A stretch of DNA of 64,000 nucleotides from Zobellia uliginosa (GTDB taxonomy: Bacteria > Bacteroidota > Bacteroidia > Flavobacteriales > Flavobacteriaceae). The translations under genes and the position numbers were made by a program. The DNA lies in contig NZ_FTOB01000003.1 of assembly GCF_900156625.1 (NCBI RefSeq), positions 248,001-312,000 on the forward strand, in the 5' to 3' direction. Numbering within the stretch: position 1 is the first letter of the stretch; each line of letters opens with the position of its first letter. Positions 9,526-62,432 of the stretch are shown piece by piece. The notes beneath the pieces were generated by a model. It worked only from the letters and a program-made list of their open reading frames with translations, searched no databases and was not told the origin of the DNA.

Positions 9526-10179
9526 ATGAAATTTTTTATAGACACGGCCAATTTGGATCAGATACGGGAAGCGCAAGAACTCGGTGTTCTTGATGGTGTA
9601 ACTACCAACCCGTCGTTAATGGCCAAAGAAGGCATTACAGGAAGAAATAATATATTAAAACACTATGTAGACATCTGCAATATCGTTGATGGGGATGTAT
9701 CTGCAGAGGTTATAGCCACAACTTTTGACGAGATGGTCAAAGAAGGTGAAGAATTGGCTGAACTACATGATCAGATCGTAGTAAAAATACCAATGATAAA
9801 AGACGGTGTTAAGGCATTAAAGTATTTTTCCGATAAAGGTATCAAGACGAACTGTACGTTGGTATTCTCTGCAGGACAGGCTTTGTTGGCCGCTAAAGCG
9901 GGGGCAACTTACGTTTCTCCATTTATCGGAAGGTTGGACGACATTTCTACCGATGGGCTTAACCTTATAGCGGAAATAAGACATATATACGATAACTATG
10001 CCTTTGAAACCCAAATTTTGGCGGCTTCTATCCGTCATACCATGCACGTGATTGATTGTGCAAAGGTTGGAGCGGATGTGATGACAAGTGGATTATCTTC
10101 GATTACAGGTCTTTTAAAACACCCATTGACAGATAGTGGTCTAGAGAAATTCTTAGCGGACTACAACAAAGGAAACTAG
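9526..10179 (+). CDS. transaldolase, small (TalC/FSA-type)
   Basis: Class I aldolase of 217 aa, the length of the short transaldolase/fructose-6-phosphate aldolase subfamily. It has the N-terminal motif [20 protein letters not shown] followed by GVTTNPSL, and the Schiff-base Lys in VVKIPM (about residue 87). It also carries [19 protein letters not shown] and the C-terminal ASIRHTMHV. In organisms with this subfamily it usually runs the non-oxidative pentose phosphate exchange between sedoheptulose-7-P, glyceraldehyde-3-P, erythrose-4-P and fructose-6-P. Sequence alone does not exclude fructose-6-phosphate aldolase activity. It is a single-gene unit with a strong terminator after it. Confidence 0.88.
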
Positions 10180-44721: not shown

Positions 44722-45537
44722 CTAAACCCCGCTAAAAGCACTAAAGCCACCGTCAACGGGAAGAACTATGCCTGTAATGAAGCGTGCGGCATCACTACAT
44801 AAAAAGTGTATGGCGCCATTCAGTTCGTCTATTTCACCAAAGCGGCCCATAGGTGTGTTGTTGATTATGTTTTTTCCACGTTGGGTAAAAGACCCGTCTT
44901 CATTGGTGAGAAGTGCCTTGTTCTGTTTGCCTATAAAAAATCCGGGAGCAATCGCATTGACACGGAGGCCGTTGCCAAATTTGGTAGCCATTTCAACGGC
45001 CATCCACTTGGTAAAGTTTTCCATAGCCGCCTTAGAGGCCGAGTAACCGGCAACGCGGGTAATGACCCTATCTGCCGCCATGGAAGAGTAATTTATGATA
45101 ACCCCTTGTTTTTGTTCAGACATGACCTTTCCAAATATTAAAGAGGGGATAAGGGTGCCGTTTAAGTTCAGTTCGGTCACTTTTTTAAAATCTTCAACGG
45201 AAATATCAAAGATGGTCTGGTCTGGGGCAACGGTAGCTCCGGGAAGATTGCCTCCGGCAATGTTCAAAAGAATATCTATTTTTCCGAAATCCGATAGAAT
45301 TTCATTCTTGACCTTGTTTAGGCTGTCCTCGTTAAGGATATCTGCTTCGTAAGCCTTAACGTGTCCGCCCACGTTTTTGATTTCATCTAATAAAGATTGG
45401 ACCGAAGATTTTTTTCTCGTCAACAGTGCCAAAGTTGCACCAGACCCTGCTAGGCTAGTGGCTATGCTGCCTGCCAAGGCTCCACTCGCTCCGGTAATAA
45501 CCGCTACCTTATTCTCAATACCGAACATTTTACTCAT
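44722..45537 (-). CDS. uxuB: D-mannonate oxidoreductase (fructuronate reductase), SDR type
   Basis: SDR-family enzyme of 271 aa, of the type found as UxuB/YjmF in Bacillus rather than the long E. coli UxuB. It should reduce D-fructuronate to D-mannonate with NAD(P)H. It has the cofactor motif VITGASGALAGSIATSLAGS, NIAGGNLPGATVAPDQTIFD (the GGNxPGAT stretch is typical of this subgroup), and the catalytic INYSSMAADRVITRVAGYSASKAAM. It is first gene of the uxuB-uxuA unit. The assignment to mannonate rests on subgroup motifs plus the uxuA neighbour. Confidence 0.87.
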   Translation of the reverse strand: MSKMFGIENKVAVITGASGALAGSIATSLAGSGATLALLTRKKSSVQSLLDEIKNVGGHVKAYEADILNEDSLNKVKNEILSDFGKIDILLNIAGGNLPGATVAPDQTIFDISVEDFKKVTELNLNGTLIPSLIFGKVMSEQKQGVIINYSSMAADRVITRVAGYSASKAAMENFTKWMAVEMATKFGNGLRVNAIAPGFFIGKQNKALLTNEDGSFTQRGKNIINNTPMGRFGEIDELNGAIHFLCSDAARFITGIVLPVDGGFSAFSGV

Positions 45538-45905
45538 TTTTTATGATTGAAGGCCCAAGATAAAACAATCTAAAGGAAAATAGCGCGAATAACATTCATT
45601 TGTCGTGAAAGACACCCGTTATTGTGTGATTAAGATGGGTATTCTTACGAATATAGATTCCTTATGGGTCTGTTAGACCCTTACTTTCTTTTTTTTGGAG
45701 GGACTGTGTGTTGTGCTAAAAAAAAGGATTCTAGTGTGGTATAATGGGAGTATAAGCCACTTTGTGTAAAAAGAACACTTATTTGGGCCTTCAGAACCAT
45801 TTGTGATAGTTATCTGAACATTTGTTGCGTGCTAACGGCTTAATAAACATCACTTTTGATAAAACTTAAACAAATGTTAAATAACTCAATTAAACTTCAT
45901 TACTT
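45538..45905. other. 368-base divergent region uxuB / susC
   Basis: AT-rich and without a gene. The heptamer CATTTGT occurs three times forward (45597, 45798, 45819) and once inverted (ACAAATG, 45870-45876). The susC-side elements are detailed in the next entry. A uxuB promoter is not clear. Confidence 0.5.
45794..45878 (+). promoter_or_regulatory. susC promoter with tandem operator repeats
   Basis: GAACCATTTGT (45794-45804) and GAACATTTGT (45816-45825) place their CATTTGT cores exactly 21 bp apart. The second copy runs into the TTG at 45825-45827, a candidate -33. A near-consensus -7 CACTTTTG (45851-45858, one mismatch) follows after 23 bases. The second half-site AACATTTGTT (45817-45826) is also repeated inversely as AACAAATGTT (45869-45878). 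HTCS and AraC-type proteins typically bind such tandem half-sites next to the -33 region of susC genes. Confidence 0.5.
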
Positions 45906-48900
45906 ATGAATGGAACTCACTTAAAATTTAAGAACTGGCAACCCCATATTTATATGTCGGGATTGCTTTGGCTTTTGGTTATAGCCTTTGGTCATGCCCA
46001 AGAGATAAGTGTTAGCGGAACGGTTTCAGACGACTCAGGGCTGCCTTTGGCAGGAGCTAATGTTCTTGTAAAGGGAACCACTAGCGGTACTCAAACCGAT
46101 TTTGACGGGAATTATACGATATCGGCTGAAAGTGGCGCTACCCTGGTATTTAGTTATATCGGTTTTACCACAAAGGAAGTAGCGATTGATGGGCAAAATG
46201 TTGTAAATGTTGTCCTTTCCGAAGATGCAAGTCAATTGGAAGAGGTCGTTGTTATCGGTTATGGTACTCAGAAAAAATCTGACCTTACAGGCTCTGTAAG
46301 TACGGTTGATAGCGAGGAAATAAACAAATTTACATATAATGACGCGGCTCAGGCCATACAAGGGCGTACAGCCGGTGTTCGAGTAGAGGCCAATGGAGGC
46401 TCGCCTGGGGCAAATGCTTTAGTTACCATTCGTGGTTCAAGCACATTGTCGGATGCAGGTCCTTTATATGTTATAGATGGAATGCTTACGGGCGATATGA
46501 CATCTTTAAACCCGGGAGATATTGAGTCTATATCTGTATTGAAAGATGCTTCGGCGAGTGCTATTTACGGTTCAAGGGCCGCAAATGGTGTTATTATCGT
46601 GACTACCAAGAAGGGTACACGCGATGGTGGTATAAAAGTTGATTTAGACTACAGTTATGGTCTTCAATCTTCGGTTAAGAATATTGATTGGGCCAATGCT
46701 AGGGATTATGCAACTATTGTGAATAGGGCTAGGGATAATGATGGGAACGATAGGTTTCCTGCCAATGACACTCAGTTTAATCCTAATATTGATAGTGATA
46801 TTCAAAAGGAATCTTTACGTACTGCGGGTGTGATGAATGCAAATGCAAGAATATATGGGGGTACGGAACATAGTACCTATAGTTTGTCGTTTAACCATTA
46901 TGATCAAGAGGGGATCGTTAAACAATCCGATTATAAAAGAACTACTGCCCGCGTTAATGCAACGCTAAAGAAAGGAAGGTTTAAATTAGAGAATACCATT
47001 GGTTTAACCCGTTCAGTGGACAATCCAAACCCTTACTTTAATAAAGAAAGGGATTTAATACCTACTATAGCAATATATGATTCTGAAGGTAATTTCAGTG
47101 CAACTGACCAGCCTTTAGATGTTGCGGTAGGAGCGTTTTATGGTGTGGGAAATGTTAGTAATTCTTTAGGGTTGGCCACGGTTGAAGATAGAACGGTTAC
47201 CAGAAACTCTGTTCTTGGAAATGTCGCTGGATCTTTTGAAATTTTTGATGGTCTTACTTATAAACTGAATTTAGGTTTGGATTATTATGCTGATAATAAT
47301 TATAGATTTACACCAACTTATGTTTTTAATACAGCAACATTTGGAAACAACCAATTTGCTGAATTAGCAGAAACAAATACTAATTTTCTTTCAACATTAA
47401 TAGAGCATACTTTAACCTATAGTAAAGAATTTAACAAACACAATGTTAATTTGGTTGGGGGTTATACCGATCAAGTTTCAAATACACGTTCCCTAGGGGC
47501 GTTGGCTAGAAAATTCCCTTCGAATGATGTTCGTGTAGCTTCGGCGGCAGAGGATAAGGTCAACTTTCCTTCCCAAGATTTAACAAAGACGATTCAGAGT
47601 TATTTTGGAAGGTTGAGTTATGCTTATGATAGTAGGTATTTGTTGACCGCTACTATTCGTAGAGATGGGTCATCATTATTTAAGAAGGACTTGAGATGGG
47701 GTACTTTTCCATCATTTGCAATAGGTTGGAATTTAGGTAATGAGAGCTTTATGGAAGACTTTACGGCTATTACCGATATTAAGATTAGGGCAAGTTATGG
47801 TGAAGTAGGTTCGGATAACGTTCCAATATATTCTTTAAGTCCAGAATTAAACCTTAACAGTGAGTATCCAATTGGTGATAGTCAAGAAAGAGCTACAGGT
47901 TATTCAATAACTAAAGGTATTAATGATGATATTACTTGGGAAACCAGTAAAACTACCGATATAGGTCTTGAATTCAGGGCTTTGGACCAAAAGTTGAGTA
48001 TTACTATGGATTACTTTCAGAAAAAATCCGAAGATGTTCTCGTTGAGCTTGGTTTGCCACTTTACACTGGTTTTGGAAACAGGGTTCCTTTTAACACGGC
48101 AAGTATAGAAAATGAGGGGTTTGAGTTTTTAGCGAATTATTCAGATAGTTTAAGCGAGGATTTTTCATTCAGTATAAGTGGAAACTTTACAACCCTTAAT
48201 AATGAAGTTACGGCTTTGGGTGATGCCACACCTATAATTGAAGGAGGTTTTACTTCCAATGGCTTAAAGGGCACTAAAACAGATGTGGGACAACCTGTTT
48301 CTTCATTTTTTGGATATGTCGTAGATGGAATTTATCAAACAGATGCCGAAGCTTTGGCAGCGAATGACAACAATAACCCACAGGCAGGTGATTTAAGATT
48401 TAAGGATATTGCTGGGCCTAATGGCTCAGGGCCTGATGGTATCATAGATGATAACGACCAGACGTTTTTGGGGAGTCCAGCACCTAATTTCGAATATGGG
48501 TTGAACATTTCCGCATCGTACAAAAATTTAGACCTAAGTCTTTTCTTTAATGGCGTTTCAGGAAATAAAATTTTGAACGGAAATATCTATAGAGGATATT
48601 TTGATACGGAAGGCCCTTACTTAACTGATGCGTTAAATGCATGGACACCGACTAATACAAATACTAACATTCCAAGAAATACACAGTCAGACCCAGGGTT
48701 TAATAGAAGACCTTCTGATTTTTACTTAGAAAACGGGGCTTATTTTAGATTAAAGAACATGCAAATAGGATATACAGTTCCATCTGAAATATCTGAGCGC
48801 ATGATGATGACAAAGCTTAGGATATACGGTTCTGCTACTAACTTGTTCACGCTTACTGATTACACAGGGTATTATCCTGAAGTAGGGCGAAACACAAGAT

Positions 48901-48989
48901 CTTCTAGAAGAATATTTAGTTCGGGTGTCGATGAAAGTGCATACCCAACGGCGAGAACCATTCAATTGGGTGTGCAAATTTCTTTCTAA
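45906..48989 (+). CDS. SusC-family TonB-dependent outer-membrane transporter
   Basis: TonB-dependent receptor of 1027 aa that imports oligosaccharides across the outer membrane with its SusD partner. In order: signal peptide (GLLWLLVIAFGHAQ), a carboxypeptidase-regulatory-like domain (SVSGTVSDDSGLPLAGANVL), the TonB-box-like EEVVVIGYGTQKKSDLTGSV, a plug with the SusC signature (VLKDASASAIYGSRAANGVI), and a beta-barrel ending in aromatic TIQLGVQISF. The region from about 46.6 kb is visibly more AT-rich than the flanking uxu and kdg genes. It is first gene of the operon, with susD 17 bases downstream. Ligand unknown; context suggests a sulfated or uronate-containing glycan. Confidence 0.95.
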   Translation: MNGTHLKFKNWQPHIYMSGLLWLLVIAFGHAQEISVSGTVSDDSGLPLAGANVLVKGTTSGTQTDFDGNYTISAESGATLVFSYIGFTTKEVAIDGQNVVNVVLSEDASQLEEVVVIGYGTQKKSDLTGSVSTVDSEEINKFTYNDAAQAIQGRTAGVRVEANGGSPGANALVTIRGSSTLSDAGPLYVIDGMLTGDMTSLNPGDIESISVLKDASASAIYGSRAANGVIIVTTKKGTRDGGIKVDLDYSYGLQSSVKNIDWANARDYATIVNRARDNDGNDRFPANDTQFNPNIDSDIQKESLRTAGVMNANARIYGGTEHSTYSLSFNHYDQEGIVKQSDYKRTTARVNATLKKGRFKLENTIGLTRSVDNPNPYFNKERDLIPTIAIYDSEGNFSATDQPLDVAVGAFYGVGNVSNSLGLATVEDRTVTRNSVLGNVAGSFEIFDGLTYKLNLGLDYYADNNYRFTPTYVFNTATFGNNQFAELAETNTNFLSTLIEHTLTYSKEFNKHNVNLVGGYTDQVSNTRSLGALARKFPSNDVRVASAAEDKVNFPSQDLTKTIQSYFGRLSYAYDSRYLLTATIRRDGSSLFKKDLRWGTFPSFAIGWNLGNESFMEDFTAITDIKIRASYGEVGSDNVPIYSLSPELNLNSEYPIGDSQERATGYSITKGINDDITWETSKTTDIGLEFRALDQKLSITMDYFQKKSEDVLVELGLPLYTGFGNRVPFNTASIENEGFEFLANYSDSLSEDFSFSISGNFTTLNNEVTALGDATPIIEGGFTSNGLKGTKTDVGQPVSSFFGYVVDGIYQTDAEALAANDNNNPQAGDLRFKDIAGPNGSGPDGIIDDNDQTFLGSPAPNFEYGLNISASYKNLDLSLFFNGVSGNKILNGNIYRGYFDTEGPYLTDALNAWTPTNTNTNIPRNTQSDPGFNRRPSDFYLENGAYFRLKNMQIGYTVPSEISERMMMTKLRIYGSATNLFTLTDYTGYYPEVGRNTRSSRRIFSSGVDESAYPTARTIQLGVQISF

Positions 48990-49006: not shown

Positions 49007-50563
49007 ATGAAAAATAAAAATATATCAAAAAGTCTATTGGTAACGCTGGTATTGCTACTGGTTATATCATATAGTTGTCGAAAAGACATATTAGAACAAG
49101 AAAATCCGAATGCTGTAACACCACAATCTTTCTGGAAAACGGAAGATGATGCGGAAAAGGGAATCATTGGTGCATATAGCCCATTTACCCATATTTGGTA
49201 TTATACCCGTTTTGAAATTTTCCTTTCGGATTATAGAGATGATGTTGTAAATGCATTTGCAACATCGGAACGTACTGCCGCAGGTTCTTTTAATGGAATT
49301 CCTCAAAGTAATGGGGCCTTTTGGGTGTGGAGTGCCATGTTCCAAGGGGTGACGCGTGCTAATGAAGTATTGGCAAATGTTCCAAATATAGAAATGGATG
49401 AAACTGCCAAAAGCAATATTTTGGGTGAAGCTTACTTCATTAGGGCATATAATTATTTCAATCTAGTGAACGGTTGGCTAAATGTTCCTTTGATCACAGA
49501 ACCTATCTCGGACTTGGAAGCTCCTAACTCTGTTCCTCAAGCAGATCCTGCGGATGTTTGGGCTCAGATTGAGTCTGATTTAATAGAGGCTCAGAAAATG
49601 GCTCCAGAGTCATGGTCTTCTGATATGAAGGGGAGAATTACATCAGGAACTGCTACAGGTTTCTTAGGTAAGGTTTATTTATACCAAAAGAAATATGCCG
49701 AAGCTAAAGCAGAATTTGCCAAGATAATGGATGGTCGATACGAGCTAATGGATAATTATGCCGATAACTTTACAGAAGCTTCCGAGAACAATAAAGAGTC
49801 ACTGTTCGAAATTCAGTTGGTAAATGACGGAAATACAGGCTGGGGCGGTGATGCGGCAGGTGCAGGTAAAGGAGCTGCCTTCCATCCTGATATTGCCCCA
49901 AAAGGGTTTACGGGTCAAGATGGTATGCGTATCAATAATTGGGTTCTTGATTTATTTTTAGATGAAAGAACGGTTAATGGTGAAATAGACCCAAGAACCT
50001 ATACTACATTGTTCTTTAATACCGATGAATTTACTATTTATGAGGGAGACACATTGGTATCGCAAACCTATGGAAACAAGAGTTACCAAGAAGTGTTTCC
50101 AGGTTCAGATTTGGTATGGGGTAATAAATGGTTGGATATAGCCTTTGATGATAAGACCGGGTCTCAAGATAACGGATGGCATCAGTCAGGTAACAACTTA
50201 AGATTGTTGCGCTATGCGGATATACTCTTGATGTATGCTGAGGCCGAGTTTATGCTTAATGGCTCAACCACAGATGCACTAGATGCAATAAATGAAGTAC
50301 GTGCCAGGGTAGATATGCCTCCGTTAGCAAGTATTACCATGCAAGATATAGAAGATGAAAGGGTGAAAGAACTATCTTTAGAACGTACTAGATATTTTGA
50401 CATTCTCAGATGGGGCAAAGTTGAAGAGTATATAGTAAACAAACCGGAACTGAAATCAGAAAGTGCTGGAACAGGTTCTTATAGGCCGGGAAGGGAGTAT
50501 ATTGCAATTCCTCAAAACGAAATAGATGCCAATCCGGTTTTCAAACAAAACCCAGGATACTAA
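49007..50563 (+). CDS. SusD/RagB-family glycan-binding lipoprotein
   Basis: Surface lipoprotein of 518 aa that forms the lid of the SusC transporter. The lipoprotein signal is LLVTLVLLLVISYSC (Cys24) followed by RKDILEQENPN. It has the N-terminal TPR-like SusD region (ILGEAYFIRAYNYFNLVNGW, TSGTATGFLGKVYLYQKKYA) and the C-terminal RagB/SusD signature (LRLLRYADILLMYAEAEFML, LSLERTRYFDILRWGKVEEY, YIAIPQNEIDANPVFKQNPG). A terminator follows, so susCD are probably expressed above the downstream genes. Confidence 0.94.
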   Translation: MKNKNISKSLLVTLVLLLVISYSCRKDILEQENPNAVTPQSFWKTEDDAEKGIIGAYSPFTHIWYYTRFEIFLSDYRDDVVNAFATSERTAAGSFNGIPQSNGAFWVWSAMFQGVTRANEVLANVPNIEMDETAKSNILGEAYFIRAYNYFNLVNGWLNVPLITEPISDLEAPNSVPQADPADVWAQIESDLIEAQKMAPESWSSDMKGRITSGTATGFLGKVYLYQKKYAEAKAEFAKIMDGRYELMDNYADNFTEASENNKESLFEIQLVNDGNTGWGGDAAGAGKGAAFHPDIAPKGFTGQDGMRINNWVLDLFLDERTVNGEIDPRTYTTLFFNTDEFTIYEGDTLVSQTYGNKSYQEVFPGSDLVWGNKWLDIAFDDKTGSQDNGWHQSGNNLRLLRYADILLMYAEAEFMLNGSTTDALDAINEVRARVDMPPLASITMQDIEDERVKELSLERTRYFDILRWGKVEEYIVNKPELKSESAGTGSYRPGREYIAIPQNEIDANPVFKQNPGY

Positions 50564-50644: not shown

Positions 50645-53632
50645 TTGAAAAAAATACTATTTATTTTAATCGTAGTCGTGCTCTCTTCTTGTAACGAACA
50701 AGAAAAAGAAATGGAACTGATTTCTCCTTCTGATTCGGGTATTACATTTGTCAATGCGATCGATGAAACCAAAGAACTGAATTATTTCAGCTTTCCTTAT
50801 ATCTACATAGGGGGCGGCGTAGGTGTTGGTGATTTTGACAATGACGGGTTCAATGATGTTTTTTTTGCGGGAAATCTGGTTTCTTCAAAAATATATAGAA
50901 ACAAAGGGGAATTTGAATTTGAGGACCTCTCTGCCGATTCTGGTATAGAGGGGGATTATTGGGCAAATGGCGTTTCCGTCATAGATATAAACCAAGATGG
51001 GCTACTTGATATTTATGTTTCTGTTGGTGGCTTTGCCAAAGCGGATAAAAGAAAGAACAAACTTTTTGTAAACAACGGAAATTTCTCTTTTACCGAACAA
51101 GCGGCAGAATATGGTATTGCGGATTCAGGGTACACAACGCAATCGGCTTTTTTTGATTTTGATTTAGATGGAGATTTAGATCTTTATGTAATGACCCATG
51201 CTAACGAACCGCCTAAAGATATTGATAAGCTCTATACAAAAAAGGATGGCTCAGGCCCCAGTACAGACAGACTGTATGAAAATAAAGGAATAGGAAAGAA
51301 TGGTCACCCGGTATTTGAAAATGTCTCAAAGAAGGCCGGAATCCAAATAGAAGGGTATGGGCTCGGCTTGGCTATATCCGATATCGACCAAGATGGTTGG
51401 CCAGATGTTTATGTGGCAAATGATTTTATCGCGAACGATCTATTGTATATCAATAATCAAGATGGCACCTTTACTAATAGATTACCTGAATATTTTCAAC
51501 ATACTTCAAGAAATGGCATGGGCGTTGACGTTTCCGATATAAACAATGACGGATTGCCCGATGTTTTGGTAATGGATATGCTTCCTGAAATTAACAAGAG
51601 GCAAAAGACTATGACGGCCAATATGAATCATGAATATTTCAAACAAACTTTGCGAGAGGGTTTTTCGCCGCAGTTCATTAGAAATACATTGCAGTTAAAT
51701 AGAGGAAAAGACGAAAAAGGTAACCCTTCCTTTAGTGAAATAGGAAGATATGCAGGGTTGCATCAGACTGATTGGAGTTGGTCTCCCTTAATAGCGGACT
51801 TTGATAATGATGGACAGAAAGATGTTTTTATTACAAATGGTTTTAGAAGAGACATTACCAATCATGATTTTACCGAATACTCTAGTCAGGTAGATATATT
51901 TGGAAAGGGAACAGGTAAATTATCCGAAGATAGAATAATAGAAAGGTTAAAGGCTCTTGATAGTATTTTTTTACCTAACTATATGTTTTCCAACAGCGGA
52001 AAATTAAAGTTTGTTGATAAGACAAAGTCATGGGGAATGGCACAGGCCTCCTTGTCTAACGGAGCTGCTTGTGCAGATTTTGATAATGATGGCGACTTAG
52101 ATTTGATAGTAAATAATATAAATGCACCGGCATTTCTGTATCGAAATAACGCGGGGAAGAATAACAAAAATCACTTCGTAAAAATTAGATTAAAGGGCCC
52201 AAAAGGAAATGTAAATGGAGTAGGAGCCAAGCTCACGGCATACATCGGCGGAAATAAAACACAATACTATGAATACAATCCGGTAAAAGGCTATATGTCT
52301 TCGGCGAACTCTAATATTCACTTCGGTCTAGGGGAAGCCTCGGCTATTGATTCGCTTAAGATTGAATGGTTAGGTGGTGCAAAACAAGTGCTCAGAGAGG
52401 TAAGGGTAGACTCCTTGTATACTTTTGACAGCAAACAAGCCAGCCTTGATGTAGAAAGTTCAGGTATATCCAATGTAAAATTTCCTTTCAAGGAAATATC
52501 CAAATCGGGTATGCTTGATTTTCGTCATGTTGAAAATGATAATAGCGATTTTAGGGGGGAACCTTTATTAATGCATTTATACGATTTTAACGGCCCGGGA
52601 ATGGCTACGGGGGATATAAACGGTGATGGAAGAAAAGATGTATATGTAGGAGGGGGACGAAATCAACAAGGTGTGATTTTTTTACAACGAATGAACGGTG
52701 ATTTCGATTCCGTACCTGTGCCAGGTTCAGAAAAATATGAAGATTTGGGGGCCTTGTTGTTTGATGCAGATGGTGATGATGATTTGGATCTGTATGTCGT
52801 TAGTGGAGGTAGTTCGGTGAAATATTTTGGAAAGGGGCATTACCAAGATCGTCTATATTTTAATAATGGCAATGGTGAATTTGTGCATAGGCCGGAAGCG
52901 CTTCCTGAAATTAAGGCGAGTGGTTCTTGTGTGGTTGCAGCAGATTATGACGCCGATGGCGACCTAGATTTATTCGTAGGTGGCATGATAGTACCCGGTA
53001 ATTTTCCTTCTACACCCAATAGTTACTTGTTGGAGAATGATAAAGGGAAATTTACCGATGTCACGGAAAGTAAGGCAAAAGGGTTAGGTAAAGTGGGCTT
53101 GGTAAGTTCGGCGATTTGGACCGATTATGATGCCGATAACGACCTAGATTTAATGGTGGCCGGAGAGTGGATGCCGATTACTGTTTTTGAAAATCAACAG
53201 GATGGATTAAAGAAGGTGGAGGAAACCGGACTGGAGAAGTATTATGGCTTTTGGAATAGTTTGGTCGGAGGTGATTTTGACCATGATGGAGATATCGATT
53301 ATATTGCCGGGAACCAAGGCGAGAATACGGCTTTTAAAGTTTCAGGCACGGAGCCGATGCGTGTCTATGCCAAGGATTTTGATTCTAATTCAAGTATAGA
53401 CCCTATAATTACGCGCTATATTAGCGGAAAAGAGGTGCCACTGGCCCCTCGAGGAGAACTCGCCAAACAACTCGTAGCTATCAATAGAATCTTTCCGACT
53501 TATGATGAATATGCCGAAGCGGAAATTGGTGATTTGCTTCAAGCGCTTGATACTACGGGTATGAGTGTTATTAAGGTGAATTACCTTAGCTCTAGTTTTA
53601 TAGAAAACCTTGGGGGGGTAAATTTTCAGTAA
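50645..53632 (+). CDS. VCBS/FG-GAP and ASPIC/UnbV repeat lipoprotein, N-terminal part of frameshifted gene
   Basis: Surface lipoprotein of the CRTAC/UnbV type, common next to SusCD pairs in marine Bacteroidota. Start TTG at 50645 (MKKILFILIVVVLSSC, Cys16). Many FG-GAP/VCBS calcium-binding loops follow: GDFDNDGFNDVFFAGN, DINQDGLLDIYVS, DFDLDGDLDLYVM, DIDQDGWPDVYVAND. An ASPIC/UnbV domain (FVKIRLKGPKGNVNGVGAKL, SNIHFGLGEA) lies at about 520-610, then a second set of propeller repeats. The frame stops at 53630-53632, 14 bases after a run of seven G (53612-53618). The missing C-terminal part continues in another frame at 53638-54162. With one more G the joint would read ENLGGGKFSVNPLPQEAQFS, the sequence expected for the family. 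It may be a sequencing error, a true mutation, or slippage. Confidence 0.85.
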   Translation: MKKILFILIVVVLSSCNEQEKEMELISPSDSGITFVNAIDETKELNYFSFPYIYIGGGVGVGDFDNDGFNDVFFAGNLVSSKIYRNKGEFEFEDLSADSGIEGDYWANGVSVIDINQDGLLDIYVSVGGFAKADKRKNKLFVNNGNFSFTEQAAEYGIADSGYTTQSAFFDFDLDGDLDLYVMTHANEPPKDIDKLYTKKDGSGPSTDRLYENKGIGKNGHPVFENVSKKAGIQIEGYGLGLAISDIDQDGWPDVYVANDFIANDLLYINNQDGTFTNRLPEYFQHTSRNGMGVDVSDINNDGLPDVLVMDMLPEINKRQKTMTANMNHEYFKQTLREGFSPQFIRNTLQLNRGKDEKGNPSFSEIGRYAGLHQTDWSWSPLIADFDNDGQKDVFITNGFRRDITNHDFTEYSSQVDIFGKGTGKLSEDRIIERLKALDSIFLPNYMFSNSGKLKFVDKTKSWGMAQASLSNGAACADFDNDGDLDLIVNNINAPAFLYRNNAGKNNKNHFVKIRLKGPKGNVNGVGAKLTAYIGGNKTQYYEYNPVKGYMSSANSNIHFGLGEASAIDSLKIEWLGGAKQVLREVRVDSLYTFDSKQASLDVESSGISNVKFPFKEISKSGMLDFRHVENDNSDFRGEPLLMHLYDFNGPGMATGDINGDGRKDVYVGGGRNQQGVIFLQRMNGDFDSVPVPGSEKYEDLGALLFDADGDDDLDLYVVSGGSSVKYFGKGHYQDRLYFNNGNGEFVHRPEALPEIKASGSCVVAADYDADGDLDLFVGGMIVPGNFPSTPNSYLLENDKGKFTDVTESKAKGLGKVGLVSSAIWTDYDADNDLDLMVAGEWMPITVFENQQDGLKKVEETGLEKYYGFWNSLVGGDFDHDGDIDYIAGNQGENTAFKVSGTEPMRVYAKDFDSNSSIDPIITRYISGKEVPLAPRGELAKQLVAINRIFPTYDEYAEAEIGDLLQALDTTGMSVIKVNYLSSSFIENLGGVNFQ

Positions 53633-53637
53633 ACCCA

Positions 53638-54162
53638 TTGCCGCAGGAAGCACAATTTTCTCCATTGTTTGGAATCGATATAAGTGATTATGACGATGAT
53701 GGATACAATGATGTTATAGGAGTGGGGAATTACTATCCCACTGAAGTGATTTCCGGGTGGTATGACGCGGGAAAAGGTGTAATTTTAAAATCTGACCGGA
53801 AAGGTGGGTTTATTTCCGTTCCGTATAGTGAATCAGGTTTTAAAGTAGAGAAAGATGCAAGGGCGTTGGTAAGTGTTGTTTTGAATGATTCCACCAAGCT
53901 TTGGGCCGCTACGGTAAATTCTGGGAAACTAAAAAGTTATATCCAAAAAAAGCATACACCTATTCTTGAGTTTGGCCCTTCCGAAGTAAGGGCGAAGATA
54001 CACTATGATAACGGTGACGTTGCCACAAAGGAATATTATTTTGGATCGGGCTATTTGTCTCAGACTTCAAATGCAATTCAAGTTCATAAATCTATGCAAA
54101 AGGTTGTATTTTACGATAAGGAAGGTAATAGAAGGGAAGTGGTTTTCAATCCTAAGGAATAA
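53638..54162 (+). pseudogene. C-terminal continuation of the VCBS/ASPIC lipoprotein, out of frame
   Basis: This 174-codon frame (TTG 53638) has no signal peptide. It begins PQEAQFSPLFGIDISDYDDD, which is the usual last propeller segment of the protein encoded at 50645-53632. It carries another calcium-loop motif (DISDYDDDGYNDVIGVGNYY) and a closing beta domain (AKIHYDNGDVATKEYYFGSG). It is one frame behind the upstream part (-1). A separate start is unlikely; translation needs a -1 slip or an extra G in the G7 run. Together the two parts would give about 1170 residues, the normal family length. The stop at 54160-54162 is 17 bases from the HTCS start. Confidence 0.75.
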
Positions 54163-54179
54163 GATGATGAAGGTATAGA

Positions 54180-57100
54180 ATGATTAGAATGAGAGTGTTT
54201 TTTCGATATAGTATTGCCGTTGCGACTATGTTAGTCATGGTCTTGGGAAATGCCCAAAACCACATAAGCTTTAAGCATATAACAACTAGTGACGGTCTTT
54301 CGCAAAGCGATATTAATGCGGTTTATCAAGATAAACAGGGCTTTATGTGGTTCGCTACGCATGACGGACTCAATAAATACGACGGTTATAAATTCACCGT
54401 TTATAACCCCAGTCCTATTAAACCGAACAGCATCAGTAGCAACTTGATTTCGGCAATAAGCGGCGATGACGAAGGAAACCTCTGGGTGGGAACGACCGGA
54501 AGCGGACTTAATTTCTACAATGCTTCTACAGGCGATTTCACGACCTATACCCATAACGAAGAAGAAATATCAAGTATCATTGGTAATCATATTACCGCAT
54601 TGTACAAAGACAGCAAAAATCGTTTGTGGATCGGAGAGAAGGATGGCCTTGATATGGTAGACCTTTCCGTTCCTACAGATCAACTCAAGTTCCAACACTA
54701 TAATTCGGAACAAGACCCCTTTATTATCGGTTGGGACGGTAGCTCCATCTATTCAATTTATGAAGACAAGAACGGCCAGCTTTTGGTCGGTGGGGCCACA
54801 GGTCTGTTCAAACTGAAAAAAGATCCCAACGGTAATGATTATTTCGGAAAAATCAATGAATCTTTAGGGCTTCCGGATTGTATCGTAAGGGGTATCATGG
54901 AGGATAATTTGGGCCGGCTGATAATAGCGACAAACGTAGGCTTATTTTGCCAGATCAAAGGAAATGGAATGAAGTTGGCGAAAATACATGACGGCAATGT
55001 AAATAATATTTTAGTTGATAATAACAATCATCTTTGGGCGGGTTCCGATGAAGGGCTTTTTTATTTTGAAAATTCCTCACTCGAAAAATTGCCCTACTTT
55101 GTTAAGGGGTTTACCTATGACTCTAGGGATTCGGGCAGTATCAGTAAGAACATCATTAAATCCTTGTACCTTGATAAAACCGGCATCATTTGGATAGGAA
55201 CCAATGGCGGGGGCATAAACATTTTTGATCCGGGAAGAAAACAATTTTTGCATGTAAGGAATACCCCCGATCCCCAAAGCCTGAGTTATGACAAGATCCG
55301 CGCCATGTATGAAGACAGTAATGGCACGGTATGGGTCGGTACGGAAGGCGGTGGCTTGAACATGTTACCTAAAAAAGATGATGATGGAAATTACGACAAG
55401 TTTAGGCACTTTAGCTCTAATTCAAGAACTTTTGCTATCACCGAGACCGTTCTCGACAACAAGAAGACCTTATTTATAGGGTCGGAAAATACTCCTGGAC
55501 TGTATTTGTTGAATATTGATGACCCGAACCGTATTGAAGCAACTGACCTGCGTACCCAAGGCTTTCCGCATGGGGTGTTCAGCTTATTGAACGATTCCGA
55601 TGAAAATATATGGATAGGCACCTATACTTCCGGAGTGCACCGATGGGTCAAAAGGGAAGATGGAAAGGGCTATGACAAGACTACCTTTAAAAGCTATCCA
55701 AAAAAAGCCTATGTTTTGCCCAGTAACATTGTCAGGTACATTTTAGAGGATAAGTTCGGTAATATTTGGTTTGCCACGGGCGATGGGTTAAGTGTCGTTA
55801 AGGCTATTGAACGGTATAAAAAACATCCTAAATTCGAAACCTATAAAAACAATTCTGAAGACCCCCAGTCCCTTAGTCACAACTATATTCTCTCGTTGTA
55901 TGAAAGTACTGTGGGTGAATTGTGGATAGGAACCTTTGGTGGTGGTCTGAATAAATTTGTTCCCGGGCAAAATGGTGAGGCAGATAGTTTTGTTTCCTAT
56001 TCCGTACAAGATGGACTTCCGAACGATGTAATCAAGGGAATTCTGGAAGACAGGGAAGGGAACCTATGGCTTTCGACCAATATGGGCTTGTCTAAATTCA
56101 ATCCGGAAAAAGAAACTTTTAAAAACTATAATGAAAACGACGGCCTTCAGGATAATGAATTTCAAGAACTGGCTTGTGTAAAGCGATCCGATGGTGAGAT
56201 GCTATTTGGTGGTATCAATGGCTTTAATGCCTTCTATCCCGAAGAGATCAGGGACAACGAACACTTGGCCGAAACCGTCATTACCGATATGCTGGTTTCA
56301 AACGAGTCCGTAAAAGTTGGGGCCGAACTTGATGGTAGGGTCATACTCGATAAAAGCATCAATAAGGTCAAAAATATAGAACTGAGCTATCGACAGAACA
56401 ATTTTTCTTTTGAGTTTGCCGCATTGCACTATGCGGCACCTTCAAAAAACAAATTCGCCTATATGTTAGAGGGCTTTGATCCCGATTGGGTGCAGACTAC
56501 TTCGAACAAGCGTTTCGCTACATATACCAACTTAGAGCCTGGTGACTACGTCTTTAAGGTCAAGGCTTCCAATAATGACGGTCTTTGGGATGAAACACCT
56601 TCGGAAATACAGATTACCATTACCCCGCCCATTTGGCAAACTTCAGCGGCCTATTTGTTTTATGGTGCATTGGTGTTGGGTATGTTATGGTTGTTTTGGA
56701 GGTACACTTTTATTAGAACGAGTGAAAAGCACCAATTGGAACTCGATCATTTGGAAAAGCAGAAATCGGAAGAAATGCAGCGGGTAAAACTCGAGTTTTT
56801 TACCAATATTTCCCATGAGTTCCGAACCCCCCTCACCTTGATCAAAGGCCCGTTGGAGTATTTGCGAAAAGATGGGGACAAAGTAAGCCAGACCAAGGTG
56901 CAGGAGCAGTACAATATTATGTACAAAAACACCAACTATTTATTAAAACTGGTCAATCAACTATTAGACTTTAGAAAGATAGACCAAGGCAAAATGCATT
57001 TGGTAGTCCGAAATAGCAATATTGTAGAGTTTATTCAAGAGGTAGGCCAACCATTTCAGTTTTTGGCCCATAAGCAAAATATCGAGTTTACGATTCAGGC

Positions 57101-58406
57101 GAACCAAGAATCACTTCAGACTTGGTTCGACCACGATGCCTTAGAGAAAATAATGAACAACCTACTTTCCAATGCGTTTAAATACACCCCTGATGGTGGC
57201 CGGATTACAGTGGAAATATCTACGGAAGGCGAAGCTAAGAATGACCAAGGTGAAAATGTAATTATAAAAGTACGCGATTCGGGTTATGGTATTGCCGAAA
57301 ACAGGGTGAACACCATATTCGAACGCTTTAATACCCAAGATAAAAAAGACAGAAGAAACCTTCAGGGGGCGGGTATAGGCCTATCTTTCACCAAGAACCT
57401 GATCGAATTGCACCAAGGTTCAATTGTTGTTAAGAGCAAACCCAACAAGGGTACGGATTTTATTGTGAAGCTTCCCATTGACAAAGCGGTCTATATGAAT
57501 ATTCCCGAGGTAAGCATCAAAGAGGTTTCTGAAAGCGACTTTTTAGTGCGCTCTTCCGAGACCGAATCTTTCGCCATTGGTATCAATGATGAAATTCTAG
57601 ATGCCGATGTGTCAAAGTCAAGGCCTAAGCAGCCTATTCTATTGGTGGTAGACGATAACGCCGATATACGAACCTTGGTAAAACAGGGGCTCGAGAGCGA
57701 CTATGTTATCTATGAGGCGGAAAACGGCAAACAGGCGCTTAAAGTAGCCAAGAATATTATGCCTAATATTATCTTGACCGATATTTTAATGCCTATAATG
57801 GACGGTACGGAGTTTTGTAAATTACTGAAAAACAATAAGGAAACAAGTCATATTCCCGTGGTGATGTTAACGGCAAAGGCATCGCAAGAAAGCGAAATAG
57901 AAAACTTGAAGATTGGAGTGGAAGGCTATATCAGAAAACCTTTTGATATGGAGCTCCTTCAACTTACCCTAGGGAATATCTTGAAGCATCGTGAACAACT
58001 TCGCAAACAATTCACCCGTAATATAACCTTACAACCTACCGAAATTGCGGTAACCTCGGTCGATGAAACTTTTTTGCAAACGGCTATTGAAATTGTTGAG
58101 AAACACATGATGAATACAGATTTCAACGTAGAGATGCTAGTAAAGGAAATGGGGTACAGCCGCAGTAACCTCTACATGAAATTCAAAGAGATAACGGGCT
58201 TGTCTTCAAGTGAATTCATTCGTAACATACGTTTAAAACGTGCGGTTCAACTATTTGAACAAAGCGATCTTTCCGTAAAGGAAATTATGTATAAAACCGG
58301 GTTCAATACCGCCTCGTATTTTTCAAAATGCTTTAAAAAACAATTCGGTGTTATACCTAGTGAGTATGTAGCCCAACTCAAAAACAAAAAAAATACCACT
58401 TCTTAA
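54180..58406 (+). CDS. hybrid two-component system sensor/regulator (HTCS)
   Basis: Single-protein two-component system of 1408 aa that senses glycan fragments in the periplasm and activates its own locus. The start is at 54180 or the ATG at 54189; the signal peptide follows (ATMLVMVLGNAQ). Residues about 25-715 are Reg_prop propeller repeats (AVYQDKQGFMWFATHDGLNK, YEDSNGTVWVGTEGGGLNML), then a Y_Y_Y domain (NEPG-type ATYTNLEPGDYVFKVKASNN). A transmembrane helix spans about 822-842. The HisKA box FFTNISHEFRTPLTLIKGPL has His879, with a HATPase domain (NNLLSNAFKYT, DSGYGIAEN, GAGIGLSFTKNLIELH). The receiver (PILLVVDDNADIR) has Asp1201, and a C-terminal AraC helix-turn-helix spans about 1305-1400. 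All catalytic residues are intact. Likely target: the tandem CATTTGT repeats at susC. Confidence 0.95.
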   Translation: MIRMRVFFRYSIAVATMLVMVLGNAQNHISFKHITTSDGLSQSDINAVYQDKQGFMWFATHDGLNKYDGYKFTVYNPSPIKPNSISSNLISAISGDDEGNLWVGTTGSGLNFYNASTGDFTTYTHNEEEISSIIGNHITALYKDSKNRLWIGEKDGLDMVDLSVPTDQLKFQHYNSEQDPFIIGWDGSSIYSIYEDKNGQLLVGGATGLFKLKKDPNGNDYFGKINESLGLPDCIVRGIMEDNLGRLIIATNVGLFCQIKGNGMKLAKIHDGNVNNILVDNNNHLWAGSDEGLFYFENSSLEKLPYFVKGFTYDSRDSGSISKNIIKSLYLDKTGIIWIGTNGGGINIFDPGRKQFLHVRNTPDPQSLSYDKIRAMYEDSNGTVWVGTEGGGLNMLPKKDDDGNYDKFRHFSSNSRTFAITETVLDNKKTLFIGSENTPGLYLLNIDDPNRIEATDLRTQGFPHGVFSLLNDSDENIWIGTYTSGVHRWVKREDGKGYDKTTFKSYPKKAYVLPSNIVRYILEDKFGNIWFATGDGLSVVKAIERYKKHPKFETYKNNSEDPQSLSHNYILSLYESTVGELWIGTFGGGLNKFVPGQNGEADSFVSYSVQDGLPNDVIKGILEDREGNLWLSTNMGLSKFNPEKETFKNYNENDGLQDNEFQELACVKRSDGEMLFGGINGFNAFYPEEIRDNEHLAETVITDMLVSNESVKVGAELDGRVILDKSINKVKNIELSYRQNNFSFEFAALHYAAPSKNKFAYMLEGFDPDWVQTTSNKRFATYTNLEPGDYVFKVKASNNDGLWDETPSEIQITITPPIWQTSAAYLFYGALVLGMLWLFWRYTFIRTSEKHQLELDHLEKQKSEEMQRVKLEFFTNISHEFRTPLTLIKGPLEYLRKDGDKVSQTKVQEQYNIMYKNTNYLLKLVNQLLDFRKIDQGKMHLVVRNSNIVEFIQEVGQPFQFLAHKQNIEFTIQANQESLQTWFDHDALEKIMNNLLSNAFKYTPDGGRITVEISTEGEAKNDQGENVIIKVRDSGYGIAENRVNTIFERFNTQDKKDRRNLQGAGIGLSFTKNLIELHQGSIVVKSKPNKGTDFIVKLPIDKAVYMNIPEVSIKEVSESDFLVRSSETESFAIGINDEILDADVSKSRPKQPILLVVDDNADIRTLVKQGLESDYVIYEAENGKQALKVAKNIMPNIILTDILMPIMDGTEFCKLLKNNKETSHIPVVMLTAKASQESEIENLKIGVEGYIRKPFDMELLQLTLGNILKHREQLRKQFTRNITLQPTEIAVTSVDETFLQTAIEIVEKHMMNTDFNVEMLVKEMGYSRSNLYMKFKEITGLSSSEFIRNIRLKRAVQLFEQSDLSVKEIMYKTGFNTASYFSKCFKKQFGVIPSEYVAQLKNKKNTTS

Positions 58407-61568: not shown

Positions 61569-62432
61569 CTAACTTCCGGGGCGTCTTTTTCGAAAGGCTC
61601 CGGGGGTAATCCCGTTCTTGGCCTTGAACATTCTTGATAGATATGAAACGGTGCCCATTCCCGTCTTTTCCGCTATCTCGGCCAAGGTGTTATTGGTGGT
61701 CAACAACAAGGTTTCCGACCGTTCTATACGAATGGTCTGGATATACTTGCTGGGCCTAATCCCGAATTTTTGCTGAAAGACCCGTGAAAAATGGTCGGAA
61801 CTCAAATTACTGTGTTTGGCTATTTGGGCAACGGTAAGGGGTTCGTGTAGGTGTTCTTTAATGTAGTTCAGTACCTCATGAAAATCGTTTTTGATATTCA
61901 GCTTAGAGCTTTTGCTATTCTGTATGAAGGGAGAGAGCAAGAGTTGTAAAAGCGATTGGGTTTGAATAAACGATTTTGCCGACAACAGGTCGTTGAGCTT
62001 TTCCGTATCGGATACAAATTTGCGGTTGTCGTATATCTTAGGGTCGTCTTCTATCAAATACCGTTTAGGGTGTAGGGTCAAGAGCGTCTTAAAATAACCC
62101 AAATCTTGATCGCTGGCTTCAATTTCGTACCTGAAATCCTTTATGTCGTATATCGACAGGCGATCACCGACTTCCTCAAGAAAATGAATGTAGTACATCT
62201 CCAAATGGTCGTTACATCGATAGCGGCTATACGTAAAGCTCGGAATCAGGTAAAGGTGGCCCGATTTTAAGTCGAACTCTTCATAACTATGGAACATTTT
62301 TCCTGAACCTTTGGTAATATAATACAGTCGGGAAAAAGGACTTATGACATTGTCGTAATCCCACGACGTATCGAGTTTGGCGTATCCCCCATGTAGAAAA
62401 GTTAGTTTTAAAGACTGTAGGATTTTATTCAT
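61569..62432 (-). CDS. AraC-family transcriptional regulator
   Basis: 287-aa regulator. The N-terminal cupin-like ligand domain (residues about 15-100) is of the kind that binds sugars (YYITKGSGKMFHSYEEFDLK, GHLYLIPSFTYSRY). A two-HTH AraC domain occupies the last 100 residues (PLTVAQIAKHSNLSSDHFSR, VFQQKFGIRPSKYIQTIRIE, LAEIAEKTGMGTVSYLSRMF). It is soluble and separate from the HTCS, so the locus probably has two regulators. Direct repeats TTTTGGTG in the upstream region (62520-62547) may be its site. Confidence 0.9.
   Translation of the reverse strand: MNKILQSLKLTFLHGGYAKLDTSWDYDNVISPFSRLYYITKGSGKMFHSYEEFDLKSGHLYLIPSFTYSRYRCNDHLEMYYIHFLEEVGDRLSIYDIKDFRYEIEASDQDLGYFKTLLTLHPKRYLIEDDPKIYDNRKFVSDTEKLNDLLSAKSFIQTQSLLQLLLSPFIQNSKSSKLNIKNDFHEVLNYIKEHLHEPLTVAQIAKHSNLSSDHFSRVFQQKFGIRPSKYIQTIRIERSETLLLTTNNTLAEIAEKTGMGTVSYLSRMFKAKNGITPGAFRKRRPGS

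Follow-up and report, generated by a model that had tools for sequence, protein, structure and literature searches.

A conserved 21-bp direct repeat upstream of susC in Zobellia uliginosa as a predicted HTCS operator

Gene content and intergenic features of the locus

The window analysed here is a stretch of 64,000 nucleotides of the Zobellia uliginosa genome (contig NZ_FTOB01000003.1). It carries a susC-susD pair, an FG-GAP/UnbV-ASPIC gene and an HTCS gene, preceded by uxuB and uxuA (Table 1). The HTCS combines a sensor, a histidine kinase, a receiver and an AraC-type HTH in a single chain (Pfam). Behind it lie genes for a sulfatase, a Gfo/Idh/MocA oxidoreductase and an AraC-family regulator (61569-62432). 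Pfam matches of the gene called uxuB are to short-chain dehydrogenases only. The closest named relatives of susC are found in Zobellia russellii and Z. barbeyronii (92% each) and in Cytophaga sp. FL35 (90%); no relatives were found among viral contigs. The FG-GAP gene is split at 53600-53640 into a reading frame of 995 aa and a second one in another frame, beside a G7 run. In L002, L003, L005 and L044 the orthologue is a single unbroken frame of 1168-1174 aa. Slippage or phase variation may account for the split, or it may be an error of assembly.

Table 1. Genes and intergenic features around the predicted operator (positions in the window)
Feature	Position	Strand	Remarks
uxuB (named so in the earlier note)	44722-45537		beside uxuA
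Conserved element AAGATAAAACAATCTA	45557-45572	-	directly before uxuB; nearly invariant in the genus
Single CATTTGT	45597-45603	+	near uxuB; probably incidental
Palindrome GTGTAAAAAGAACAC	45764-45778		GTGTA-N5-TACAC-like; about 20 bp before the operator; recognisable in 9/9 genomes of the genus
Predicted operator CATTTGT-N14-CATTTGT	45798-45825	+	two TGANCATTTGTT half-sites with a 21-bp period; susC promoter position -65 to -38 (predicted)
-7 promoter core CACTTTTG	45851-45858	+	nAnnTTTG; predicted transcription start about 45863
Inverse CATTTGT	45870-45876	-	in predicted susC leader; probably incidental
susC	45906-48989	+	TIGR04056; presumably controlled by the predicted operator
susD	49007-50563	+	behind susC
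FG-GAP/UnbV-ASPIC protein	50645-53632	+	frame broken near G7 run; remainder 53638-54162
HTCS	54180-58406	+	Reg_prop propeller, Y_Y_Y, HisKA, HATPase_c, Response_reg receiver, HTH_18 (Pfam)

The uxuB-susC intergenic region is 368 bp long. An earlier note on this DNA had reported four CATTTGT heptamers in it, at 45597, 45798 and 45819 on the forward strand and inversely at 45870-45876, and the sequence bears this out: all four are in place, and the copies at 45798 and 45819 stand in direct orientation exactly 21 bp apart. Across the whole window the heptamer is not enriched (14 observed versus 12.8 expected). Four CATTTGT copies were reached in none of 2000 dinucleotide shuffles of the region, some heptamer reached four copies on either strand in 287 of 2000, and a 21-bp pair of any heptamer appeared in 77 of 2000; both properties fell on one heptamer in 3 of 2000. 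Given these any-heptamer frequencies, and since many intergenic regions were read, the heptamer count alone is weak evidence. In the 5.30-Mb genome there is a single occurrence of the exact pattern CATTTGT-N14-CATTTGT and none of the reversed control pattern. The judgement that the pair is probably regulatory and the lone copies probably incidental is based on conservation, not on counts.

Conservation of the repeat beside exchanged transporter genes

We compared the intergenic region across nine genomes of the genus, the present one included. The 21-bp pair is kept in all nine, some copies reading CATATGT, with the consensus CAT(T/A)TGT-N10-TGAN-CAT(T/A)TGT; conservation in relatives, a check that the earlier note had proposed, thus speaks in favour of its reading. 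The first heptamer starts 104-108 and the second 83-87 bases upstream of the susC ATG. Invariant columns make up 20 of 31 in the box (6 of 7 in each heptamer) versus 6 of 185 in the uxuB-side spacer; the palindrome has 12 of 19 and the leader 21 of 47. The copy at 45597 is found in two genomes only (the present one and G151), and the copy at 45870 is in place in four. The pair looks like a real regulatory site, and the other two copies are probably incidental.

The susC-susD-FG-GAP cassette at the locus exists in three divergent forms, and uxuAB and the HTCS gene are present in all nine genomes. SusC of the first form is 92-94% identical to ours (G150, G153 and G154, beside the present genome), that of the second form 61-63% (G152 and G155), and that of the third about 38% (G001, G149 and G151). 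Hence six of the nine genomes carry a close susC, and the remaining three a different one at the same place. By identity G151 is the sister of the present genome (uxuB 98.5%, HTCS 94%), yet its SusC is of the 38% form. Between the two genomes the box is identical at 28 of 28 positions and the next 63 bases at 94%, while identity has fallen to 62% in the uxuB-side spacer and to 63% over the first 595 susC bases. From these alignments, the promoter block appears to be under selection and to travel with the staying flanks rather than with the transporter. The HTCS DNA-binding domain is 93-99% identical and the sensor 75-92% among those copies in the genus that were measured. The pair also stands upstream of a 90%-identical susC in L002, in whose 23 kb neither uxuB nor the HTCS has a relative above the cut-off.

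Association with an HTCS domain clade and with the -7 core

To find loci of related regulators, the DNA-binding part of the HTCS (57990-58403) served as the query, and 20 to 58 kb were taken around other HTCS genes. The test set comprised 19 loci with domains 73-86% identical, namely the paralog in the same genome and 18 loci in 14 other genomes; 16 were drawn from 35 candidates outside the genus and two genomes were added, all picked by rank and contig room and not by content. As controls we used all eight further HTCS loci of the present genome (domains 37-53% identical). The 19 loci are not wholly independent, as G459 contributes three and G373 and G002 two each, G002 and G362 share a genus, as do G019 and G373, and the promoters of G296/L002 and G353 are almost alike.

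We scanned intergenic regions with two half-matrices and free spacing, leaving out the locus under test, the training sites from other loci having been chosen at 21 bp. Among 21 spacings, 21 bp came out best at 13 of the 19 similar-domain loci and at none of the eight controls; over the 19 loci its mean best score was 18.0, that of other spacings at most 9.3. At the remaining six loci 21 bp did not rank first, which counts against the HTCS as the regulator that binds the box. A matrix built solely from the nine Zobellia-group susC boxes was applied to 24 sets, four of them fetched via susC and the paralog included twice. It gave a mean best score of 16.8 at 21 bp versus at most 10.4 at 21 other spacings, with 21 bp first in 11 of the 24; the eight controls averaged 9.6 at 21 bp and up to 11.9 at other spacings. 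Two sets omitted from the leave-one-out scan because they had been fetched via susC (G019 C2 and G017 C2) both rank 21 bp first with this matrix. Of 20 sites traced to genes, 14 stand 83-118 bp and three 198-322 bp before an ORF, and three lack an ORF of 200 aa in the next 500 bp. By inspection, the genes behind them are mostly susC or start like the GH29 fucosidase described below. Together with its conservation throughout the genus, the linkage to this domain clade at a spacing of 21 bp supports the proposal of the earlier note that the pair represents two half-sites for the AraC-type domain of the HTCS.

Downstream of the box, CACTTTTG agrees with the -7 core of Bacteroidota sigma-A promoters (TAnnTTTG) at seven of eight positions, n counted. 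These promoters have a TTG at -33. None is present at -33 of the susC promoter, where 45828-45834 reads cgtgcta. The earlier note had placed a candidate -33 TTG under the second heptamer; this is not supported, as the overlap is nominal. The nearest TTG (45825-45827) has one base in common with the heptamer, lies 23 bp before the core and would fall at about -38 to -36, and the heptamer itself, predicted at -44 to -38, adjoins -33 and does not cover it. The activator may therefore stand in for a weak -33 contact. The numbering follows from the Bacteroidota -7 consensus as given in the part of PMC9723704 used here, with the core at -12 to -5, which puts the box at -65 to -38 and the susC transcription start near 45863.

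The distance between box and core is largely constant. Of 29 listed sites, counting orthologues, 23 have TTTG or TTTAG at one offset after the box, and the scans behind these sites made no use of the core. It is missing from six: two sulfatase boxes, which read TTTTC, a second, overlapping pair in G129, the box of a second susC in G011 and two sites near the paralog. With training on the Zobellia-group susC boxes only, a core at the fixed offset follows the best 21-bp match in 10 of the 19 loci, compared with 6 of 380 over 20 other spacings, none of the eight controls and a background of 448 of 41205 positions (1.1%). A composite model of box and core, again with training sites from other loci chosen at 21 bp, exceeded 18 bits in 15 of 19 loci under leave-one-locus-out versus two of eight controls (21.6 and 20.9). 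The four similar-domain loci with no match above 18, and the two controls with one, argue against the HTCS. When the spacing was shifted by 1-2 bp, 0 or 1 of the 19 loci were left, and when the core was shifted by 3 or 6 bp, 3 or 4.

A strong pair at one control locus likewise argues against the HTCS. L191, on contig C13 of the same genome, carries two CATWTGTT half-sites with 19-bp spacing at about 9878-9903 (score 27.7), with no -7 core at the fixed offset. The domain of the nearby HTCS is 53% identical and has the stretch of the second recognition helix in common with the clade. This is possibly a related site with another geometry.

Predicted regulation, alternatives and possible regulon

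From the repeat, its conservation, its linkage to the domain clade, its spacing and its constant distance to the -7 core we infer that 45798-45825 is very probably the operator from which the HTCS activates susC. The periplasmic propeller domain would sense its oligosaccharide, upon which the HTCS would become phosphorylated. AraC-type domains read two consecutive grooves. Those of the phosphorylated HTCS would bind the two head-to-tail TGANCATTTGTT half-sites, two helical turns apart on the same face of the DNA, and from there recruit RNA polymerase to the -7 core that lacks a -33 TTG. This would switch on susC-susD and the genes behind them, perhaps including the HTCS gene itself, while uxuB would run from its own promoter.

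A different candidate is the stand-alone AraC-family regulator encoded downstream of the HTCS, since members of the AraC family, too, can bind direct repeats spaced by about two turns. Relatives of this protein occur in those Zobellia-group loci that extend that far and near the HTCS in G459 C1 and G502, and G011 has one of 47% identity at a distance of about 7 kb from two weak susC boxes (21.0 and 16.7). The nearest similar HTCS in G011 is about 40 kb from the susC box, as it is in the genome of L002, and no box was seen before the start of the HTCS gene itself; both observations weigh against the HTCS. However, tblastn (E 1e-20, 90 bits) detected no relative of the stand-alone regulator in the fetched parts of G296 (with L002), G297, G353, G129 and G508 or at the paralog, all of which have boxes, and box presence follows the similarity of the HTCS domain, which favours the HTCS. 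The stand-alone protein is also less conserved, at 78-81% identity in six Zobellia-group genomes versus 93-96% for the HTCS domain, an uneven comparison of a whole protein with a domain. We consider binding by this regulator quite improbable and the HTCS much the likelier. Least plausible of all, and to our mind hardly credible, is a functionless repeat that arose by chance and was kept by common ancestry. The ease with which some heptamer reaches four copies in shuffles would suit it, but the adjoining spacer has diverged from that of the sister G151 while the box has not, and the same spacing and -7 offset recur in other genera.

The HTCS might in addition control uxuB from the intergenic region, which would bring polymer uptake and uronate breakdown under one regulator. 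Consistent with this, uxuAB stands beside the box in all nine genomes, whichever of the three susC cassettes is present, and in G502 a similar HTCS has a uxuB of 77% identity in its vicinity. The earlier note had based this idea on the copy at 45597, which does not sustain it: this copy lacks a partner at 21 bp, is oriented away from uxuB and is restricted to two of the nine genomes. The uxuB strand of the region holds no 21-bp pair (best score -6.6 versus 33.3 for the susC box), and the susC box is the sole pair scoring above 15 on either strand of the window. Moreover, uxuB has a conserved element of its own: 17 of 21 columns at 45552-45572 are invariant in the nine genomes, the AAGATAAAACAATCTA element is recognisable in G502, and it is perhaps part of the uxuB promoter. 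In Bacteroides thetaiotaomicron, the HTCS BT0366 shifted its PUL promoter and not the arabinose-catabolism promoter, according to the part of PMC5061871 used here. Shared control of uxuB thus appears unlikely, and we retain the HTCS as predicted activator of susC.

HTCSs are a main route of glycan sensing in Bacteroidota, and sites of this type are already known. The Bacteroides HTCS motifs derived by comparative genomics (Ravcheev et al. 2013, PMC3878776, as far as used here) are direct repeats of two conserved sites at an average distance of 21 bp before PUL genes, and the pair described here resembles them in its two direct sites about 21 bp apart before a susC-type gene in an HTCS locus. 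It also resembles HTCS_Rgu-1 of that study (12-bp sites, 9-bp spacer) in having a 12-bp half-site. In contrast to that work, ours concerns Flavobacteriaceae and the half-site TGANCATTTGTT, follows one DNA-binding-domain clade across genera and finds a constant distance to the -7 core, of which the part of PMC3878776 used here makes no mention. For the arabinan HTCS BT0366 a fragment with receiver and DNA-binding domain shifts a promoter with the predicted site, and the protein activates its PUL (PMC5061871, same part); binding, shown there, is predicted here, and the ligand differs. Fructan PULs of B. thetaiotaomicron strains vary in SusC/SusD (PMC5967196, in the part used), much as susC-susD differ between relatives here; unlike there, the differences lie between species, the exchanged stretch includes the FG-GAP gene, and operator, -7 core and HTCS are kept. 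The direct repeats of XylRA in Vibrio (PMC12125979, in part) were considered as a parallel and rejected, as XylRA is a LacI/AraC-type regulator and not an HTCS. In the literature covered, with most subscription journals outside its scope and several sources in part only, we recognised no HTCS motif for Flavobacteriaceae and no constant -7 offset, and the only HTCS DNA-motif paper recognised treats gut Bacteroides. What our comparisons would add is the recurrence of the site beside similar HTCSs in other genera, often at a fixed distance to the -7 core, and its apparent retention while uptake genes were replaced.

We put forward a broader hypothesis, for and against which we see equal grounds. 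HTCS, operator, -7 core and leader might form a fixed regulatory socket for susC-susD-FG-GAP cassettes that are swapped between species, changing import and leaving sensing and switching as they are. The clade would then use one rigid promoter grammar across genera (two CATWTGT half-sites at 21 bp and a constant -7 offset) that is able to predict regulons from sequence. A conserved promoter over exchanged transporters would serve as a natural experiment in substrate change at such loci, and a half-site tied to a domain clade, with a constant -7 distance, would make it possible to predict and test HTCS regulons in marine Flavobacteriaceae.

We also searched for further sites. Genus-wide, the 21-bp pattern, which was built after the susC boxes had been seen and has them among its matches, matched 83 times and its reversal 22 times; adding the -7 core gave 90 versus 25. 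A control with 20-bp spacing gave 16 versus 9 in the nine genomes. A second kind of site is present in eight of nine genomes, with a weaker match in the ninth (G154). Here it lies at C12:316661, 4.7 kb past the window and 115 bp before a sulfatase gene that starts at C12:316776. A sulfatase-like match stands at the corresponding place in L111, L113, L118, L119 and L120, a comparison that did not extend to G152, G153 and G154. The third site (C12:328005-328032, minus strand) is 118 bp before a GH29 alpha-L-fucosidase gene that starts at C12:327914; seven of nine genomes show a comparable match. The stretch between the second and third sites contains uronate-type genes (altronate dehydratase, mannitol-dehydrogenase family). 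The half-site motif would tie distant genes to the locus, and the same HTCS would most likely activate the sulfatase and fucosidase genes. In view of these and the uronate-type genes, a sulfated polymer containing fucose and uronate is a possible substrate.

Matches of the palindrome, with up to two mismatches, number at least 516 genus-wide versus at least 436 for the reversed pattern. As this is barely above the control, we claim no regulon for it. By eye, no palindrome was seen before the susC box of L002. In the present locus it is perhaps the site of a second regulator.

The paralogous HTCS, whose domain is 78% identical, has boxes nearby at C13:439857 and C13:448071, one of them before a fucosidase-like gene. 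Other genomes of the genus have similar matches, and cross-talk between the HTCS and its paralog is possible.
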